From Pigmentiphaga humi (lineage in GTDB: Bacteria; Pseudomonadota; Gammaproteobacteria; Burkholderiales; Burkholderiaceae_B), in assembly GCF_900606115.1 (NCBI RefSeq), contig NZ_UWPJ01000039.1, forward strand, positions 1 through 64,000: a stretch of 64,000 bases of DNA, given 5' to 3'. Position 1 is the first letter of the stretch. Each line of letters starts with the position of its first letter. Shown here piece by piece: positions 35,319 to 41,398 of the stretch. The position numbers and the translations under genes were made by a program. Below the pieces are notes generated by a model. It was not told the origin of the DNA. It ran no database searches and worked only from the letters and a program-made list of their open reading frames with translations.

Positions 35319-35647
35319 GCGCCCGTGACGAAATTGGTAGACGTAGCGGACTTCCGTAAAAGTGGAGTGCCCTGGACGAAAGTCCGGGAGTAGAACCCGT
35401 CAAATTCGGCGAACCCCTGGCACGGGAACGCCGAGCCAAGCAGGCGGCCCATGCGGGCCGCCGGGCGTGTGTAGAGACTCGACGGCGGGGGCCTAAGGCC
35501 GGCGCATCACGATGCGCCGGCGACGGTCAAGGCAGAGTCCAGACCCCAAACGGCATTGCCCTGGCGCAATCCGGCTGCGCGAGCAGTAGCAGGTAAGAAA
35601 ATCCGCCGCCGCAAGGCGTACCGGTTCGATTCCGGTCGGGCGCACCA
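35319..35647 (+). tRNA. tRNA-Leu(UAA), interrupted by a group I intron
   Basis: Exon 1 is 35319-35353 and exon 2 is 35598-35647; spliced they give an 85-base tRNA with encoded CCA. Acceptor GCGCCCG (35319-35325) pairs with CGGGCGC before ACCA. The D arm has ACG/CGT with AAATTGGTAGA; the anticodon stem GCGGA/TCCGC holds loop CTTAAAA with anticodon TAA; the long variable arm is CGCCGCAAGGCG; the T arm is ACCGGTTCGATTCCGGT. The break falls between T34 and A35, the same site used by cyanobacterial tRNA-Leu(UAA) introns. The only gene for UUA codons visible here. Confidence 0.95.
35354..35597 (+). ncRNA. Group I self-splicing intron (244 nt, no ORF)
   Basis: The insert starts after U34 and ends with G (35597), the terminal guanosine of group I introns. 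The core matches the Azoarcus-type tRNA introns: P2 hairpin CCTGGAC-GAAA-GTCCGGG (35371-35388); the P3/P4 block TCAAATTCGGCGAA; ACGCCGAGCCAAGC; a P6 hairpin GGCGGCCC/GGGCCGCC; the conserved P7/P3 strand GTGTAGAGACTCGACGG; a perfect P8-like hairpin with GCCGGCGCATC; and CAGAGTCCAGAC. A guide sequence GAGT at 35365-35368 can pair with exon ACTT, putting a U-G wobble at the 5' splice site. No homing-endonuclease gene. Confidence 0.93.
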
Positions 35648-35696: not shown

Positions 35697-35855
35697 ATGA
35701 CCCAGCAGATCCAGCCTTCCCCGCACTTGTCCACCGAGGCTGACGAGGACGGCCGTGCGCCTTATCTGAAGCCGGAGCTCCTGGACAGAGGCTCGGTGGC
35801 AGAGCAGACCCGCTTCGGGGCTGCAGGCGCCCAGGACGGCGACACCTATTCTTGA
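35697..35855 (+). CDS. Lasso-peptide-type RiPP precursor
   Basis: A 52-residue peptide. The leader contains YLKPELLDRGSVAEQTR, an exact fit to the lasso leader pattern Y-x2-P-x-L-x3-G-x5-T-x. In that family Thr is the penultimate leader residue, so the core would be the last 13 residues, FGAAGAQDGDTYS. Asp at core position 8 could close an eight-residue ring onto the N-terminus; starting at the next Gly gives Asp at 7 or 9. The peptide ends in Ser, the residue phosphorylated in paeninodin-type lasso peptides by an HPr-like kinase, and such a kinase is two genes downstream. The ATG at 35697 has AGAAGG just upstream; an earlier in-frame ATG is at 35679. Confidence 0.85.
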   Translation: MTQQIQPSPHLSTEADEDGRAPYLKPELLDRGSVAEQTRFGAAGAQDGDTYS

Positions 35856-35881
35856 ACCGGTTGGATCCCCGCGCAGGCGCT

Positions 35882-36193
35882 ATGGGTCATCAGGCAGCCA
35901 TGATGCTTAGCAGACGCCCGGATGCCCTGTGGGCCGATTTCGACGGCCAGGTGATGGTCATGAGTATTGCCTTCGGGCGGTATTTCGAGATCAGGGGCGT
36001 GGGCACGGAAGTATGGAAGTTGCTCGACACCCCGCGTGAACCGGCCGATATCGTCCGGCACATCCTGGCCAAGTACCGGGTGGATATCGCGGATTGCGAG
36101 CGGGACGTCAACGCGTTTCTTCAACGCGCGCTCGAGGCAGGCCTGCTCGTCGATGAAGCCTGCCGGGCGGCCAACGAAGGGCCCGCGTGCTGA
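35882..36193 (+). CDS. PqqD-like leader-binding protein (lasso B1 type)
   Basis: A 103-residue protein of the PqqD/RRE fold that binds RiPP leader peptides: SRRPDALWADFDGQVMVMSIAFGRYFEIRGVGTEVWKLLDTPREPADIVRHILAKY and DVNAFLQRALEAGLLV. In lasso systems a free B1 protein of this form delivers the YxxPxL leader to the B2 protease and the cyclase. An ATG at 35882 is chosen; the frame is open to a TTG inside the precursor stop. The ribosome site is weak, so translation is probably coupled to the precursor gene. Confidence 0.85.
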   Translation: MGHQAAMMLSRRPDALWADFDGQVMVMSIAFGRYFEIRGVGTEVWKLLDTPREPADIVRHILAKYRVDIADCERDVNAFLQRALEAGLLVDEACRAANEGPAC

Positions 36194-36224
36194 CCCCGAT
36201 CGGCACGCGGCGAGGCAGACGACG

Positions 36225-37154
36225 TTGACGCGGTTGAAGTACAGGCTGTATGGGGTGACGCTCGAGACACCCTACATGCTGCCGGGCGTTCCCCCGGCCG
36301 CCGCAGGCAGCACCGCCGACGTGACGGTGCTGTGGGAAGGACGGGACGGTTGCCGTTCCGGCTGGAAAACCCTCGAGCCGTCCACGCAGCCCCACGCCCC
36401 CGAGGTCGGAACCACCGCGGACGGAGAGACCTGTCTGGCCTGGCGCGAAGGTTCGGAAGGCATGCTGTGGATCGTGGCCGCCGATGGATCCTGTGTCCGT
36501 CTGTATTGCGCCGAGCATCATTTCGTCCATGCCGCTGCGATGACCGTCGGCCTGATACTCGGCGTGGTGCTGCAGCGGCGCGGCGTATTGTGCCTGCACG
36601 GCGCGGCCGTTTCCTGGAAGGGGCGGTCCCTGGCCGTGCTGGGGGCCAGCGGCTCGGGCAAGTCCACGCTGTCGGCGGCCCTGGTTGCCCGCGGCGCAAC
36701 TCTGTTGGCCGATGATCTCGTGGCGGTCACCCAGGCCGCCGGCGCGCCTGCCGTCGAACGAGGCTGCCTCGGGATCCGCCTGCTGCCGGCGTCGCTCGAG
36801 CAGGGGATCGTGCCGGCCGGCCGGAATGTGGGCAAGGCCATCCACCATGGCAAGCATCTTTGGGACCTGTCCGCGGAAGCTGAGCTGGGCGAGCGCGCAT
36901 GTCCTCTGGAGGGGATATGGGTTCTGCGCCCGGCGCCGCAGGATAGCGGCGCATTTGCCATGGCCGCTTTGGCGCCGATGGACGCCATGCGCCAGTTGGT
37001 CTCGAACTGGTATCCCCCTTCGTTGTTCCGGTTGATGGAGCCTGCGGCGTTTTCCAGGATGCGGGAGCTTGCCTGCGACGTGCCGGTGCGGGCAGTGACG
37101 TATGGACACCGCTGGTCTCATCTCTCGGCATTGGCGGAGACGCTGCTCGCATGA
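36225..37154 (+). CDS. HPr-kinase-like protein (putative RiPP serine kinase)
   Basis: About 309 residues resembling the C-terminal kinase half of HPr kinase: CLHGAAVSWKGRSLAVLG, the P-loop GASGSGKST at residues 140-148, and LLADDLVAV (the DD acts as Walker B). The HPr kinase N-terminal domain is replaced by a different 110-residue region. Kinases of this type in lasso clusters phosphorylate the C-terminal Ser of the precursor, and this precursor does end in Ser. The start is set at a TTG (36225) nine bases after GAGG; no ATG is available. The stop overlaps the next gene (37151-37154). Confidence 0.8.
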   Translation: MTRLKYRLYGVTLETPYMLPGVPPAAAGSTADVTVLWEGRDGCRSGWKTLEPSTQPHAPEVGTTADGETCLAWREGSEGMLWIVAADGSCVRLYCAEHHFVHAAAMTVGLILGVVLQRRGVLCLHGAAVSWKGRSLAVLGASGSGKSTLSAALVARGATLLADDLVAVTQAAGAPAVERGCLGIRLLPASLEQGIVPAGRNVGKAIHHGKHLWDLSAEAELGERACPLEGIWVLRPAPQDSGAFAMAALAPMDAMRQLVSNWYPPSLFRLMEPAAFSRMRELACDVPVRAVTYGHRWSHLSALAETLLA

Positions 37155-39172
37155 TGCCTGCCTCGTTGACGCCCATCCTCGCGTTTTCGCTCGCGCACCA
37201 GGGTTGGGAGATGTCGTCCGGCCTGTCCTGGCTGTCGAGCCTGTTGCCGGCCGTGGCCTGTGCCGGCGTCGAGTTCAGGATGGACGGCAAGGCTGAAGGC
37301 GTGATCGATCTGCAGCAGCGCATCAAGAGCGCTGCGGACGTCGAGCGTCTCCGTCTGCGCGTCGGCGGCCTGCTGCAGCGCGATGGGGGCGAGGTCCCGG
37401 CGTGCTGGAGGATGCTGGAGCATGCCATCGGGCTCGGCGTGTTCGAATTGCCATTCGATGAGTGTTGGCTGGAACTCGACCACGTGGCGCAGGGGCAATT
37501 GCCGGCGCTGTCCTGTTTCATCAAGTTCGACGATCGCGTGGACGCGCCGGATCTGGCGGTCCGCGCGGAACGATGGCTGGCATGTTTCGGCCAGGCCTTG
37601 GGCGACGGCGCGCGCAGTGTGCTGCAGCGATGCCAGGCCGCGTGCCGGCCCGGCCAGCGCGTGTCGTATCTCGGCTTCATGCTCGGACGTCCGGGCGCGC
37701 CGCTGCGCTTGATCGTGGAAGGCGTCGCGTGGGATGGCTTCCAGCCGTTGCTGGGCGGGATCGGCTGGCAAGGCGACGGCGAGGCGCTGCAACGCGAACT
37801 CGACTTCCTGTTCGGCCATTTCGACCGCATACGCCTCGCGCTGACAGTGGGCGATGCCGTCGAAGCGGCGTTCGGGCTCGAATGCTTCGTCGGCCGGTCC
37901 GGCGAGCGGGACATGCGGTGGTCCGGCGCGCTCGGCGCGCTGGCTGGGCGCGGGTTGTGCACCGAGGCGCACCGGCGGCGGATCGCGGCCTGGCCGGACA
38001 CCGCAACGCCGGCAACCGCCAGCGCGCCGTGGCCGGACGCCATGCTGATCGATGCCCTCGCCAAGGGGGCGAATTGGCTGGGCCGGCTCGACTTTCGCAT
38101 CAGCCATGTCAAGCTCGGGTTCGACGGCAAGGCGCTAGCGGGGGCCAAGGCCTACCTCGGTTTCGTGGAAACCTGGGAGGATCTGGCCGCGCCGGCTTCT
38201 GTCGCCGATCCCGCGCGCCGTGGGACAGGCCCCAGGTCCGCGGGCGAGGCATGCGGCGCTGCCCTGGACTTTCTGCTGGACAGCCGCATGCCCGGGGGAT
38301 GGTGGCTGGATTATCCGGGATTGCAGAACGCCAGCGATGAATGGGTGAGCGCGTACGCCGCCAATGCGATCCTGGACCATGCCGGCGATGCGGCGGCGTT
38401 GGCCGCGGCCGCGCGGGCCTGGTCGCTGCTGAGTACGAGCACGCGTGACGGATGGGGCTGGAATCGCGTCAAACCGGCTGACGCCGACAGCTCCATCTGG
38501 GCGTTGCGCCTGGCCGCGCGGCTGGGCGCGGCGGGAGCGAGGCAGGCGCATGCGGGGCTGGATTTCCTGCGCGCCCACATGAGCCAGAGCGGCGGCCTGC
38601 GCACTTATGCGCGCGAGTGTGTGAAGCAGGGCCCGCACAGCCAGCCCATGCTGCCCGCGTGGTTCGACGTGCAGGATTGCGTGACCGCCGCGGCAGCAGG
38701 GCTGGAGGCTTTCAAGGAAGGCGCGCTGGGCCATCTGCGTCGATCGCAAGGCCCGGAGGGAGCATGGACGTCCTATTGGTGGGTGGACGCGGCGTATCCT
38801 ACCGCGTTGGCGGTGGAGGCCCTGGCCGCCTCGCCGCAGCCTGGCGACCGGGCAATCATCGGCCGCGCGGTCGATTGGGCGGCCCGCCGCTGCGTCCCTG
38901 CAGCCGGGGAAGACGGCGCGCGGTGCGGGGGGCCGTTTTCCCGCGCACTCCTGGCGCGCATCCTGGGCCATGCCGCGTATCCGGATAAAGCGTTGCTGAC
39001 GCGTCTCCGGGACGGCCTGTTGCAGGACCAGCTCGCCGACGGTTCCTGGACGGCGTCGGCCTGGATGGCGATTCCCCTGGAAGGACGCAGCCTGATCGTG
39101 GTCGACGGAGCGCGGATCATCACCTCCTCCACGGTCCTGGCCAGTCTCGCCAGGCTGAGGCATGTGGTGTAA
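37151..39172 (+). CDS. Two-domain protein with squalene-cyclase-like C-terminal half
   Basis: A 673-residue protein not recognised over its first 340 residues. The second half has the features of the terpenoid-cyclase/prenyltransferase barrel: QW-like repeats (MPGGWWLDYPG, STSTRDGWGWN, GPEGAWTSYWW, LADGSWTASAW) and a DADSS motif with D444 and D446, which recalls DxDD of class II cyclases with the final Asp lost. It starts inside the kinase gene stop (ATGA), so it belongs to the RiPP operon. Its job is unknown: a modifying enzyme adding an isoprenoid, a scaffold, or a replacement for the missing leader protease are guesses. No Cys-His-Asp protease triad of the B2 type was found. Confidence 0.75.
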   Translation: MMPASLTPILAFSLAHQGWEMSSGLSWLSSLLPAVACAGVEFRMDGKAEGVIDLQQRIKSAADVERLRLRVGGLLQRDGGEVPACWRMLEHAIGLGVFELPFDECWLELDHVAQGQLPALSCFIKFDDRVDAPDLAVRAERWLACFGQALGDGARSVLQRCQAACRPGQRVSYLGFMLGRPGAPLRLIVEGVAWDGFQPLLGGIGWQGDGEALQRELDFLFGHFDRIRLALTVGDAVEAAFGLECFVGRSGERDMRWSGALGALAGRGLCTEAHRRRIAAWPDTATPATASAPWPDAMLIDALAKGANWLGRLDFRISHVKLGFDGKALAGAKAYLGFVETWEDLAAPASVADPARRGTGPRSAGEACGAALDFLLDSRMPGGWWLDYPGLQNASDEWVSAYAANAILDHAGDAAALAAAARAWSLLSTSTRDGWGWNRVKPADADSSIWALRLAARLGAAGARQAHAGLDFLRAHMSQSGGLRTYARECVKQGPHSQPMLPAWFDVQDCVTAAAAGLEAFKEGALGHLRRSQGPEGAWTSYWWVDAAYPTALAVEALAASPQPGDRAIIGRAVDWAARRCVPAAGEDGARCGGPFSRALLARILGHAAYPDKALLTRLRDGLLQDQLADGSWTASAWMAIPLEGRSLIVVDGARIITSSTVLASLARLRHVV

Positions 39173-39186
39173 GGAAGGGAGCGAAT

Positions 39187-39423
39187 ATGCAAAACTGTCA
39201 TGCCGGGCATGAAAGCGCCATCCAGTCCGCGCTGCATTTCATCCGGCACCTGCGCGGCGCCCCCGGGTTGGCGGCGCAATTGGGCGTCGGATCCGGCCTG
39301 GCCGCCCTCGGGGATCTGGTCGAATCGGGCGCGCGCCTAGGCTGGGTGTTCGACGAAGACGCATTGCGTGCCGCATTCCGCATCGAGTGGACGATGCGTG
39401 CGGCATTGGTCCGCCGCCCGTGA
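39187..39423 (+). CDS. Nif11-like small protein in the RiPP operon
   Basis: A 78-residue protein with a Nif11-like pattern: AIQSALHFIRHLRGAPGLAAQLG, then ALGDLVESGARLGWVFDEDALRAAFRIEWTM. This follows the usual helix, DPxL, GF-x-F-x-xEEL order. Nif11 domains serve as leaders of many RiPP precursors, but here no core peptide follows the domain, and no GG cleavage site is present. It could instead act as an accessory adaptor, or be a precursor with an unusual short tail (ALVRRP). GGAAGGGAG stands before the ATG; 14 bases after the cyclase-like gene. Confidence 0.65.
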   Translation: MQNCHAGHESAIQSALHFIRHLRGAPGLAAQLGVGSGLAALGDLVESGARLGWVFDEDALRAAFRIEWTMRAALVRRP

Positions 39424-39460
39424 ACGTATGGTGCCGGGTTTTTCTTCTTGAGGATTCGAT

Positions 39461-41398
39461 GTGACCGCGATTGCCGGCCTGGTTCGATTGGATGGGCAGC
39501 CCGCGTCTCGCGCGGCGCTGGAGCGCGTGCAAGGCGTCCTGGCTCCTTATGGTCCCGACGCCAGCCAGTCCTGGCTGCGCGAGAGCGCGGGTTTCGTGCG
39601 CACACTGCTGCGGATCACACCGGAAGACAGCCTGGATTTCCAGTTGCCCTATGACGCGGCCAGCGGCACGTTGGTGCTCTTCGACGGCAGGCTGGACAAT
39701 CGCGAGGAACTGGCGGACGACCTGGGAATCGGCGGCGCCGAACTGGCCACCCTGGCCGACGGCATGCTGACGCTGCGCGCGTGCCTGCGCTGGGACGACG
39801 GCACGCCATCCCGCCTGCTGGGCGATTTCGCGCTGGCCTGCTGGCAGCCTTCGCGCAGGCGGCTGTGGCTGGCGCGGGATCCCATGGGAGCGCGTCCGCT
39901 GTTCTGGCACCGCCACTCGGATTTCTTTGCCTTTTCGACCATGCCCAAGGGCTTGTTCGCGCTGCCCCAGGTGCCGCGCGAACTGGACGAGGAGGCCTTG
40001 CACGACGGAATGTGCCTGTTGCCCATGACGGGTCCGCGATCGCTCTTCAAGGACGTCTGGCGCATCGAGCCCGGCCAGGTGCTGACGCTGGAGCAGGGCC
40101 GCATCGCGGCGCGCCGCTATCACGATTTCGATACGACGCGGGAGCTGCGCCTGTCGAGCGACGACGACTATCTGGAGGGCTTTCGGCACGAGCTGGAGCG
40201 TGCCGTGGCGCGGCGCTTGCGCAGCCGCGGCGCGGTGGCCTCGCACCTGAGTTCCGGTTTCGACAGCGCCACGGTCACGGCGATAGCGGCGCGTCAGCTG
40301 GCAGAGCGGGGGGGCCGGCTGCTGGCCTACACGGCGGTGCCGCGGGAGGGCTATGCGCTGCCGTCGCCCAGGGGGCGGTATGGCGATGAAGGACCGGGTG
40401 CGCGCGCGGTCGCAGCGCGGTTTCCGAACATCGAGCACGTGCTGATCCGCAGCGGCGCCGTTTCCCCGCTCAAGGGCCTGATGCGCGCGATGGAACGCCT
40501 GGACCGCGGACCGGCCAATCCGTGCAACCAGGTCTGGATCGACGCGATCGAAGCGGATGCCGTGCAGCGCGGCGCGCGCGTGCTGCTGACCGGCCAGATG
40601 GGCAACATGACCATCTCGTACTCCGGCGAACCTTACCTTTCCGAGTTGCTCGCGCATGGAGCCTGGGGCGAATGGTGGCGGGAACTCAGGGCCTTGAAAC
40701 GGCACGGCAGCCGGCGCTGGCGTGGGCTGCTGGGCGCCTCGCTGGGGCCGTACCTGCCGTCCTGGCTGTGGCGGGCCACCTTGCCCCTGCGCGAGAACGG
40801 CGTGAGCGCAGTGACGAGCTATATGGCCATCAACGAAGCTTTCATGGCGCGCATGGACAGCCCGCGGCGGATACGTGCCGCAGGCTGGGATACCACCTGT
40901 CAGCCCTGGGGCGACGGGCGGAAAATGCGCATTGCCGTGCTGCGCCGCATGGATTGGGGCGATAGCTCGGCGGCGGCCAACGCAGCGGGGTTGGAAATGC
41001 GCGATCCCACCGCCGACCTGCGGCTGATCGAATATTGTCTTTCATTGCCCGGGCACCAGTACCTGCGCGGCGGCCAGACCCGCTGGCTGCTGCGCCGCCT
41101 GATGGGCGGCGTATTGCCGCCGGAGATACTGGGCGCCAAAGAGAGAGGCCTGCAGGCCGCCGACTGGCATGAAGGCGTGTCGGCCGACCTGGCGGGCCTG
41201 AAGGCCGAGTGGCAGCGCCTGAGCGAGCATCCGACGGTCGGCCGCTACCTCGACCTGCCCGCGCTGCGCAAGATCCTCGACGATTGGCCCGAAGAGGGCT
41301 GGCACGACCACCGGGTCATCGGCACCTTCCGGATGAAGCTTTTGCGTGGATTGGCCGTGGGAGCGTTCGTCCGCTATGTGGACGACCGAAATTCCTGA
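39461..41398 (+). CDS. Asparagine-synthase-like lasso macrolactam cyclase (C protein type)
   Basis: A 645-residue asparagine synthase B-like protein starting with GTG (GAGGA ahead). The N-terminal glutaminase-like half lacks the catalytic Cys2 (the start is MTAIAGL), as in lasso cyclases. The synthetase half has the pyrophosphatase loop SSGFDSAT at residues 264-271 (SGG-x-DSS form), GDEGP, and TGQMGNMTISYSG. Lasso C proteins adenylate the Asp or Glu side chain of the core and join it to the N-terminal amine. Last gene of the RiPP operon. No ABC exporter follows. Confidence 0.87.
   Translation: MTAIAGLVRLDGQPASRAALERVQGVLAPYGPDASQSWLRESAGFVRTLLRITPEDSLDFQLPYDAASGTLVLFDGRLDNREELADDLGIGGAELATLADGMLTLRACLRWDDGTPSRLLGDFALACWQPSRRRLWLARDPMGARPLFWHRHSDFFAFSTMPKGLFALPQVPRELDEEALHDGMCLLPMTGPRSLFKDVWRIEPGQVLTLEQGRIAARRYHDFDTTRELRLSSDDDYLEGFRHELERAVARRLRSRGAVASHLSSGFDSATVTAIAARQLAERGGRLLAYTAVPREGYALPSPRGRYGDEGPGARAVAARFPNIEHVLIRSGAVSPLKGLMRAMERLDRGPANPCNQVWIDAIEADAVQRGARVLLTGQMGNMTISYSGEPYLSELLAHGAWGEWWRELRALKRHGSRRWRGLLGASLGPYLPSWLWRATLPLRENGVSAVTSYMAINEAFMARMDSPRRIRAAGWDTTCQPWGDGRKMRIAVLRRMDWGDSSAAANAAGLEMRDPTADLRLIEYCLSLPGHQYLRGGQTRWLLRRLMGGVLPPEILGAKERGLQAADWHEGVSADLAGLKAEWQRLSEHPTVGRYLDLPALRKILDDWPEEGWHDHRVIGTFRMKLLRGLAVGAFVRYVDDRNS

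Follow-up and report, generated by a model that had tools for sequence, protein, structure and literature searches.

The window, as the 64-kb stretch of Pigmentiphaga humi DNA analysed here is called, contains a tRNA-Leu(UAA) gene with a group I intron inserted in its anticodon. In intron mode, ARAGORN places an 85-nt tRNA-Leu(taa) at exactly 35319-35647 with a 244-nt intron (gactt-Intron-aaaat), and the insertion point, gactt|aaaat, is U34/A35, between the first and second bases of the anticodon. The original prediction of a tRNA-Leu(UAA) split after U34 by 244 nt at 35319..35647 proved exact to the base; as it had also claimed, the intron is preceded by T (U in the RNA), ends in G and carries a P2 capped by GAAA, and the exons join to a complete tRNA. 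An endonuclease gene is absent, again as predicted: at 244 nt the intron is too short for one, and its longest stop-free stretch, read from the sequence only, is 78 codons. The features are the following.

35319..35353, + strand: 5' exon of tRNA-Leu(UAA), ending C32 U33 U34 (ARAGORN intron mode)
35350..35368, + strand: P1, exon ACUU and C35354 against the guide GGAGU (35364-35368), with a U-G wobble at the 5' splice site (covariation)
35354..35597, + strand: group I intron, IC3-like, 244 nt, its last base being the conserved 3' terminal G (ARAGORN; covariation; 11/11 genomes of the genus)
35370..35388, + strand: P2 hairpin with GAAA loop (sequence; covariation)
35396..35401, + strand: P3 5' strand CCCGUC, partner 35484-35489 (covariation)
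35407..35433, + strand: P4 (35407-35411 with 35429-35433) and short P5 (35414-35416 with 35424-35426) (covariation)
35441..35465, + strand: P6 and P6a hairpin (covariation in the genus)
35476..35480, + strand: P7 5' strand, partner 35535-35539, in pseudoknot with P3; expected guanosine site (covariation)
35484..35489, + strand: P3 3' strand GGCGGG (covariation)
35490..35528, + strand: P8 (35490-35493 with 35525-35528) and P8a hairpin (35498-35521) (covariation)
35535..35539, + strand: P7 3' strand (covariation)
35543..35594, + strand: P9.0 (35543-35545 with 35592-35594), P9/P9a (35551-35573) and P9b with GCGA loop (35575-35586) (covariation)
35598..35647, + strand: 3' exon of tRNA-Leu(UAA), from A35 to the encoded CCA (ARAGORN intron mode)

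The structure model was drawn from the sequence and the known group I architecture, and pair counts were then made on two alignments. In the alignment of the genus (11 sequences), 95.5% of 715 cells pair and 12 pairs show double changes; 23 double-change cells were counted against a shuffle mean of 6.5, and sliding the 3' strands was observed to always lower the pairing, to 28-41%. The number of further pair types shows no excess over shuffles in this alignment (203 of 500 reach it). The wide alignment draws its 43 sequences from a broad range of bacteria and more than one kind of tRNA; here 1846 cells were counted, of which 93.4% are paired, and double changes occur at 30 of 43 pairs (288 cells against a shuffle mean of 83), a count that omits P6a, P8a, P9 and P9a, whose loops do not align. 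The energy z-score of a single-sequence fold of gene plus intron is −3.1.

Helix by helix, the five P1 pairs are all kept in 11/11 congeners, including the U-G at the splice site; among the 43 sequences this splice-site pair is U-G in 42 and C-G in one, and the outermost P1 pair fails in 20. In the genus P2 is paired in 94.8% of cells, one of its pairs being broken in four of the 11 sequences. In the 43 sequences it reaches 79.3%, and P4 and P5 together 91.6%, with the outermost P5 pair failing in 27. P6/P6a is 95.5% paired in the genus, with compensatory changes at three pairs. The P3/P7 pseudoknot, the core of the predicted fold, is supported by compensatory changes in both the 11 congeneric and the 43 wider sequences: P3 is 100% paired in the latter with compensatory changes at four of six pairs, and P7 is 99.5% paired, with one position found in four forms (C-G, U-A, A-U and G-C). 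P8 is paired in 98.8%, P9.0 in 96.1% and P9b in 100% of cells of the wide set, the last with compensatory changes at all four pairs. Two distal elements align poorly among congeners, namely P8a (75.8% of cells paired) and P9a (84.1% in the genus). The group I identity of the insert is therefore confirmed and is settled by covariation. By its sequence the intron appears to belong to the IC3 subgroup (the Azoarcus or tRNA type), being small, with a plain P5 lacking P5abc and an Azoarcus-like conserved core, the features that we take to define that subgroup. A run of U beside the guide, which would allow P10-type pairing with the AAA of the 3' exon, is absent in 11/11 congeners; at least two U stand there in 99 of 111 other parsed Leu introns (seven more could not be parsed). 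Thus, the second splicing step may need help.

Standard searches miss the gene. ARAGORN in default mode yields tRNA-Cys alone in the window. The general group I model of Rfam (RF00028), suggested as a check by the original prediction, does match part of the core (E of 0.011 for a 561-base stretch), but at 19.7 bits, below the gathering score of 50; what this check was meant to establish is borne out by the P3/P7 covariation. Over the P. humi genome the sole match of the model is another intron, at 29.1 bits. The gathering score is a detection threshold and not a defining feature of group I chemistry, and RF00028 alone was set aside as a test of group I identity, being too insensitive.

Conservation of the split gene in the genus

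The intron-split gene is present in P. humi and, at 74-93% identity, in 10/10 sister genomes, and hence in 11/11 genomes of the genus; the 5' exon is 91-100% identical across the 10 congeneric genomes. Both splice-site bases are constant in the genus while loops and stems vary, as expected if splicing is required. An intact tRNA-Leu(UAA), which would have made the split copy dispensable, was not found in the P. humi genome by a pattern search allowing up to two mismatches, nor in any of the 11 genomes by BLAST with the spliced 85-nt tRNA. Among the other BLAST matches, all those spanning most of the query that were read with ARAGORN are tRNA-Leu(CAA); outside the readings lie a 70% match in one genome (G010), some weak partial hits and several fragments of the 3' end. 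The 5' end of the tRNA also gave a 25-nt match, which is tRNA-Leu(UAG) in both genomes read. With 56 contigs and a completeness of 98.85%, the P. humi assembly leaves room for a second copy in a gap, but hardly so in all 11 genomes.

The gene upstream encodes an AMP-binding enzyme (AMP-ligase), with matches in 9/10 sister loci over the 1.5 kb compared. Vertical inheritance of the split gene within the genus is supported, as is its reading as an essential tRNA gene kept in split form. On the downstream side, the window holds PqqD-like, HPr-kinase-like (below cut-off), weakly squalene-hopene-cyclase-like and asparagine-synthase genes at 35852-41398, a set that, as far as the sequence goes, resembles a lasso peptide cluster. 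In 5/10 sister loci, no more than 0.9 kb separates the tRNA from the counterpart of the window's sequence from about 41.45 kb onward, and the block 35852-41398 thus looks inserted.

Occurrence of introns at the same site

Further introns were gathered by a genome scan with a pattern of the core plus AAAATC, which returned at least 119 stretches; this pattern is biased to tRNA-Leu by design and yields no frequency. Among the matches listed, 103 scan loci were parsed, of which 95 are Leu(UAA) (one, L105, from a congener), six Leu(CAA) and two unread. With loci from other sources included, 119 were parsed and 16 were unparsed. The joined exons of the parsed loci give Leu(UAA) in 109, Leu(CAA) in eight and neither in two, and two of the unparsed loci are tRNA-Arg(CCU) introns. 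Three parsed introns without the terminal G were removed before tree building. The listed record titles name alpha-, beta- and gamma-proteobacteria, Bacteroidota, Acidobacteriota, Chloroflexota and Planctomycetota, with many metagenome bins, and the Leu-site introns among the matches listed are mostly proteobacterial.

In the family to which the window belongs, the core pattern was found in 93 of 268 genomes, and in one of its genera (g4) in 43/43, where 30 loci were read (L148-L177), all tRNA-Leu(UAA); these counts are lower bounds, at least one congener (G010) having been missed. Other intron hosts in the family are tRNA-Ser(UGA), tRNA-Leu(CAA), a CAU tRNA and a tRNA read as Thr(UGU). The last (L204, genome G172) is on a long branch and has a 72% identical tRNA 3' half about 100 bp downstream. 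Where tRNA-Ser(UGA) and tRNA-Leu(UAA) adjoin, the intron lies in Ser with Leu intact or the reverse, depending on the genus (L199-L202 versus L208 and L213).

Site and core match those of the window intron at 130 of 154 other intron loci, a set in which a few loci are duplicated and 30 come from one genus. The 'Azoarcus-like' forms of the core strings recur in Leu introns, partly by construction, the scan pattern having included part of them. Judged by these sequences, tRNA-Leu(UAA) introns at U34/A35 are widespread, and the window intron belongs to a known kind. The original prediction had seen here an Azoarcus-like core at a cyanobacterial-like site, in a setting of proteobacterial tRNA-Ile and tRNA-Arg introns. 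The Azoarcus-like core in a proteobacterial tRNA-Leu(UAA) stands; the setting does not, as at least 95 Leu(UAA) loci, mostly from proteobacteria, were found. The mixture of core and site as a hint of transfer between tRNA genes is likewise unsupported, the Leu(UAA) site being common in proteobacteria. Vepritskiy et al. in 2002 reportedly described a tRNA-Leu(UAA) intron in a subsurface gamma-proteobacterium. A passage of PMC8450103 places group I introns in tRNA-Ile2 of Acidovorax and Burkholderia, and one of PMC4033280 describes tRNA introns as 'found mostly in cyanobacteria and in few alpha- and beta-proteobacteria'.

Integrative elements near intron-split tRNA genes

P. humi has a second group I intron, of 251 nt, on contig C44, within locus L001 (~94775-96671). 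Read by eye, it follows U33 of a CAU tRNA (ARAGORN intron mode gives Leu(taa) with a shifted boundary). The split tRNA sits between two halves of the native CAU tRNA, cut in the anticodon loop, and the 1.8-kb insert has glyoxalase-family and MarR-family genes. A larger case was found in a sister genome (G005), where the native 5' half of tRNA-Leu(CAA) is followed, after 186 bp, by a complete intron-split tRNA, and 13.8 kb separate the 5' half from its native 3' counterpart. These two halves are complementary in the acceptor stem, and their common core, ACTCAAAA, is the anticodon loop. The intervening DNA (L236; contig C12 of G005, 49.2-63.1 kb) is a 13.8-kb integrative element with TrbI and CagX/TrbG-like genes. 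Besides the split replacement tRNA-Leu(CAA), it bears a phage-defence-like SIR2/STAND protein.

Such tRNA remnants were sought around 164 intron loci, namely 10 of the genus and 154 others, of which 150 have at least 300 bp of upstream sequence. A tRNA 5' half on the same strand, within 2 kb upstream and ending in the anticodon loop, was found at 27 of these 150 and downstream at none; 3' halves were found upstream at two and downstream at three of the other loci. Among intronless controls an upstream half was found at 0/35 tRNA-Leu genes and 1/64 others, the single case having a full-length tandem copy next to it. The difference gives a Fisher value of 0.003 against the tRNA-Leu controls and 7e-6 against both controls together, with the reservation that the intron loci are not independent (a few duplicated, 30 from one genus) and that many of the 35 controls are tRNA-Leu(CAA) of one genus.

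Mobility genes accompany these halves. In 8 of 9 loci with the half at a distance of 1.1-1.5 kb (one being the query itself), the space between half and intron-split tRNA contains an integrase-like gene, and an integrase remnant was also found in one locus with a closer half. The L112 protein, from an environmental Caulobacterales bacterium, matches the Pfam integrase model weakly, its 24.9 bits falling short of the 27.1-bit cut-off, and L121 gives no match, so the name integrase also draws on motifs resembling those of tyrosine recombinases, recognised by eye. Where the half is at 62-194 bp, trbI is downstream in 5 of 17 (one being the query's own locus). Among the 137 loci without a half, many of them short, an integrase was found in one and trbI in none. 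Behind the element-borne split tRNA-Leu of Variovorax sp. WDL1 (L108, 3074-7808) lies a Gabija-like pair, an OLD-type ATPase and a UvrD helicase, with the ATPase gene broken by a transposase gene.

The 3' exon pairs better with the intron-split tRNA's own 5' end than with the acceptor strand of the stub in 19 of 26 cases, several by one G-U only, and equally well in six; one locus (L055) has a trimmed tRNA and is not judgeable. Thus, the whole tRNA seems to be element-borne at those 19 loci. An element that ends with the intron and uses the native 3' exon was dropped as a candidate, since the stub pairs worse in 19/26 and the native 3' half in G005 is 13.8 kb off. The integrase family was also found in another order, in 20 of 347 genomes at 22 loci (two overlapping): 17 are beside intact tRNAs of other isotypes, two beside a tRNA-Leu half with an intron-split tRNA-Leu, and three beside no tRNA. 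The 17 indicate that the integrase family needs no intron in general. A search with one element-borne intron gave no match in E. coli genomes and one partial match in phages.

According to a passage of PMC4383910, it is known that attachment sites can lie in the anticodon loop and that a fragment carried by the island can restore the tRNA. In the open-access literature searched, a complete intron-split replacement tRNA was not found described, and titles and abstracts gave no link of tRNA group I introns to integrative elements. From the sequences above, integrative elements seem to carry intron-split replacement tRNAs. It can be put forward, tentatively, that many endonuclease-less bacterial tRNA introns are working parts of such elements: an element would enter a tRNA gene at the anticodon loop and break it, bringing along a complete replacement tRNA that is split by the intron at the attachment core, its own anticodon loop; splicing would restore the essential tRNA in the RNA, and the window intron would be a domesticated descendant. 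We infer that, in the DNA, the intron would thereby hide the attachment site from the element's own integrase. If true, this would explain the spread of introns between species. The gathered loci suggest a travel route for endonuclease-less tRNA introns, on elements with a replacement tRNA split at its attachment core, and the old question of tRNA intron spread thereby becomes testable with laboratory integrases.

For the window gene, arrival on an element is a guess; no element machinery is near it. The split gene may possibly have been brought to the ancestor of the genus by a tRNA-Leu-targeting integrative element that has since decayed, but this is rather doubtful. The cut 5' halves at 27/150 other loci, some adjoined by integrase or conjugation genes, are consistent with such an origin, as are the element that splits tRNA-Leu(CAA) in the same genus and the tRNA-Leu(UAA) genes that adjoin tRNA-Ser(UGA) in some other genera of the family. 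However, this adjacency was not found at the 11 loci of the genus (the tRNA-Ser probe found 10 Ser(UGA) and one Ser(GGA)), neither a cut 5' half nor another tRNA remnant was found in the 64-kb window or in the flanks of the 10 sister loci (up to 1.5 kb), and upstream synteny is kept within the genus. In addition, none of 161 other tRNAs compared exceeds 86% identity to the exons, and no donor is therefore visible. The exons are 83.5% identical to Leu(CAA) and 83.5-86% to some Leu(UAA), hence no nearer to the former, and these values speak neither for nor against a remoulding of tRNA-Leu(CAA) into tRNA-Leu(UAA).

Origin of the intron, proposed splicing and known systems

The place of the genus among tRNA introns varies between trees, the genus itself being long-branched, and bootstraps are unsettled in all three. 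In the first tree (142 rows) the branch of the genus measures 1.7 changes per column and stands in the half with most alphaproteobacterial rows. In the second (130 rows, the longest removed), joining it to the Ser, Ile, AGC-type Leu or alpha-type Leu introns is in every case unrejected (p-AU 0.24-0.36). In the third (144 rows, with new relatives) it lies near the base of the beta/gamma half, beside introns of Mycetohabitans megaplasmids, without starred support. These megaplasmid introns are the nearest full-length relatives found, at about 70% identity. Outside the genus only partial matches were found in the samples of the order (11 of 399 genomes) and of the phylum (11 of 398), P. humi being counted in each.

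A move of the intron into tRNA-Leu(UAA) from another tRNA gene, either tRNA-Ile2 as in Azoarcus or tRNA-Ser(UGA), is unlikely. The P7 of the window intron, GACU/AGUC, is that of Azoarcus-type, Arg and Ser introns, whereas many beta/gamma tRNA-Leu introns have AGC/GCU; yet GACU is also found in alphaproteobacterial and some beta/gamma tRNA-Leu introns. Ser(UGA) introns of the same family of bacteria occupy the same loop position (CUU|GAAA), and trees joining the genus to Ser or Ile are unrejected (p-AU 0.36 and 0.33), but in unconstrained trees the genus groups with neither, and the two Mycetohabitans introns that were read are both in tRNA-Leu(UAA). No jump from tRNA-Ile is needed to explain the window intron. 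Before the genus arose, it would most likely have been a tRNA-Leu(UAA) intron already rather than a jumper from tRNA-Ile, and it may have arrived with a foreign tRNA gene.

That the gene is a dead copy, with UUA leucine codons read by another tRNA, is highly improbable: P10-type pairing is missing, but cloverleaf, splice sites and core are kept in 11/11 genomes, the loops diverge with compensatory changes, and no other tRNA-Leu(UAA) was found. The intron is instead almost certainly a working, immobile, self-splicing group I intron of IC3 type, located in the only tRNA-Leu(UAA) gene found and fixed in the sampled genus; its anatomy, its conservation and the failure to find an intact copy are observed, and its splicing chemistry is assigned by analogy. 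By the known mechanism of the group I family, the transcribed intron would fold into a P3-P7-P8 core with P4-P6, guanosine would be bound in P7, the RNA would be cut after U34 within the P1 helix, and U34 would be joined to A35, restoring the UAA anticodon. With no intact tRNA-Leu(UAA) found, the whole genus appears to rely on a ribozyme for an essential tRNA.

Among known systems, the group I introns in the T-loop of tmRNA are similar in occupying a tRNA-like gene at a spot that is also used by genomic islands, and few have endonuclease genes (23 of 844), as given in parts of PMC11915505. They differ in gene and loop, and the same parts of that source do not link the introns to islands. Like the window intron, the tRNA-Leu(UAA) introns of cyanobacteria and plastids are small, interrupt the same gene and lack an endonuclease gene. 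They are inserted after U34, which is the site in the window. The Anabaena intron shares the P7 C-G pair with the window intron but is very distant from it in sequence; its row has an end branch of 2.6 changes per column, and its place in the tree cannot be relied on. The Azoarcus tRNA-Ile(CAU) IC3 intron shares the core strings TCAAATTCGGCGAA and GTGTAGAGACTNGACGG and is of similar size, but the window intron differs from it in its plain short P5 loop. Azoarcus-type introns also occupy another tRNA and site (ctcat|aatcc, after the anticodon, in L205) and form a separate branch in the trees; the nearest neighbour of the Azoarcus row is L205, from the family of the window. Compared with proteobacterial Leu introns, the genus stands apart in the missing U-run by the guide, in a P7 of GACUC/GAGUC in 9/11 congeners and in the lack of close relatives among the genomes sampled from its order and phylum. 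The tRNA-Leu(UAA) introns of Achromobacter, Variovorax, Pseudomonas jinjuensis, Caulobacter and Bradyrhizobium nevertheless have the same gene, site and fold as the intron in the window.
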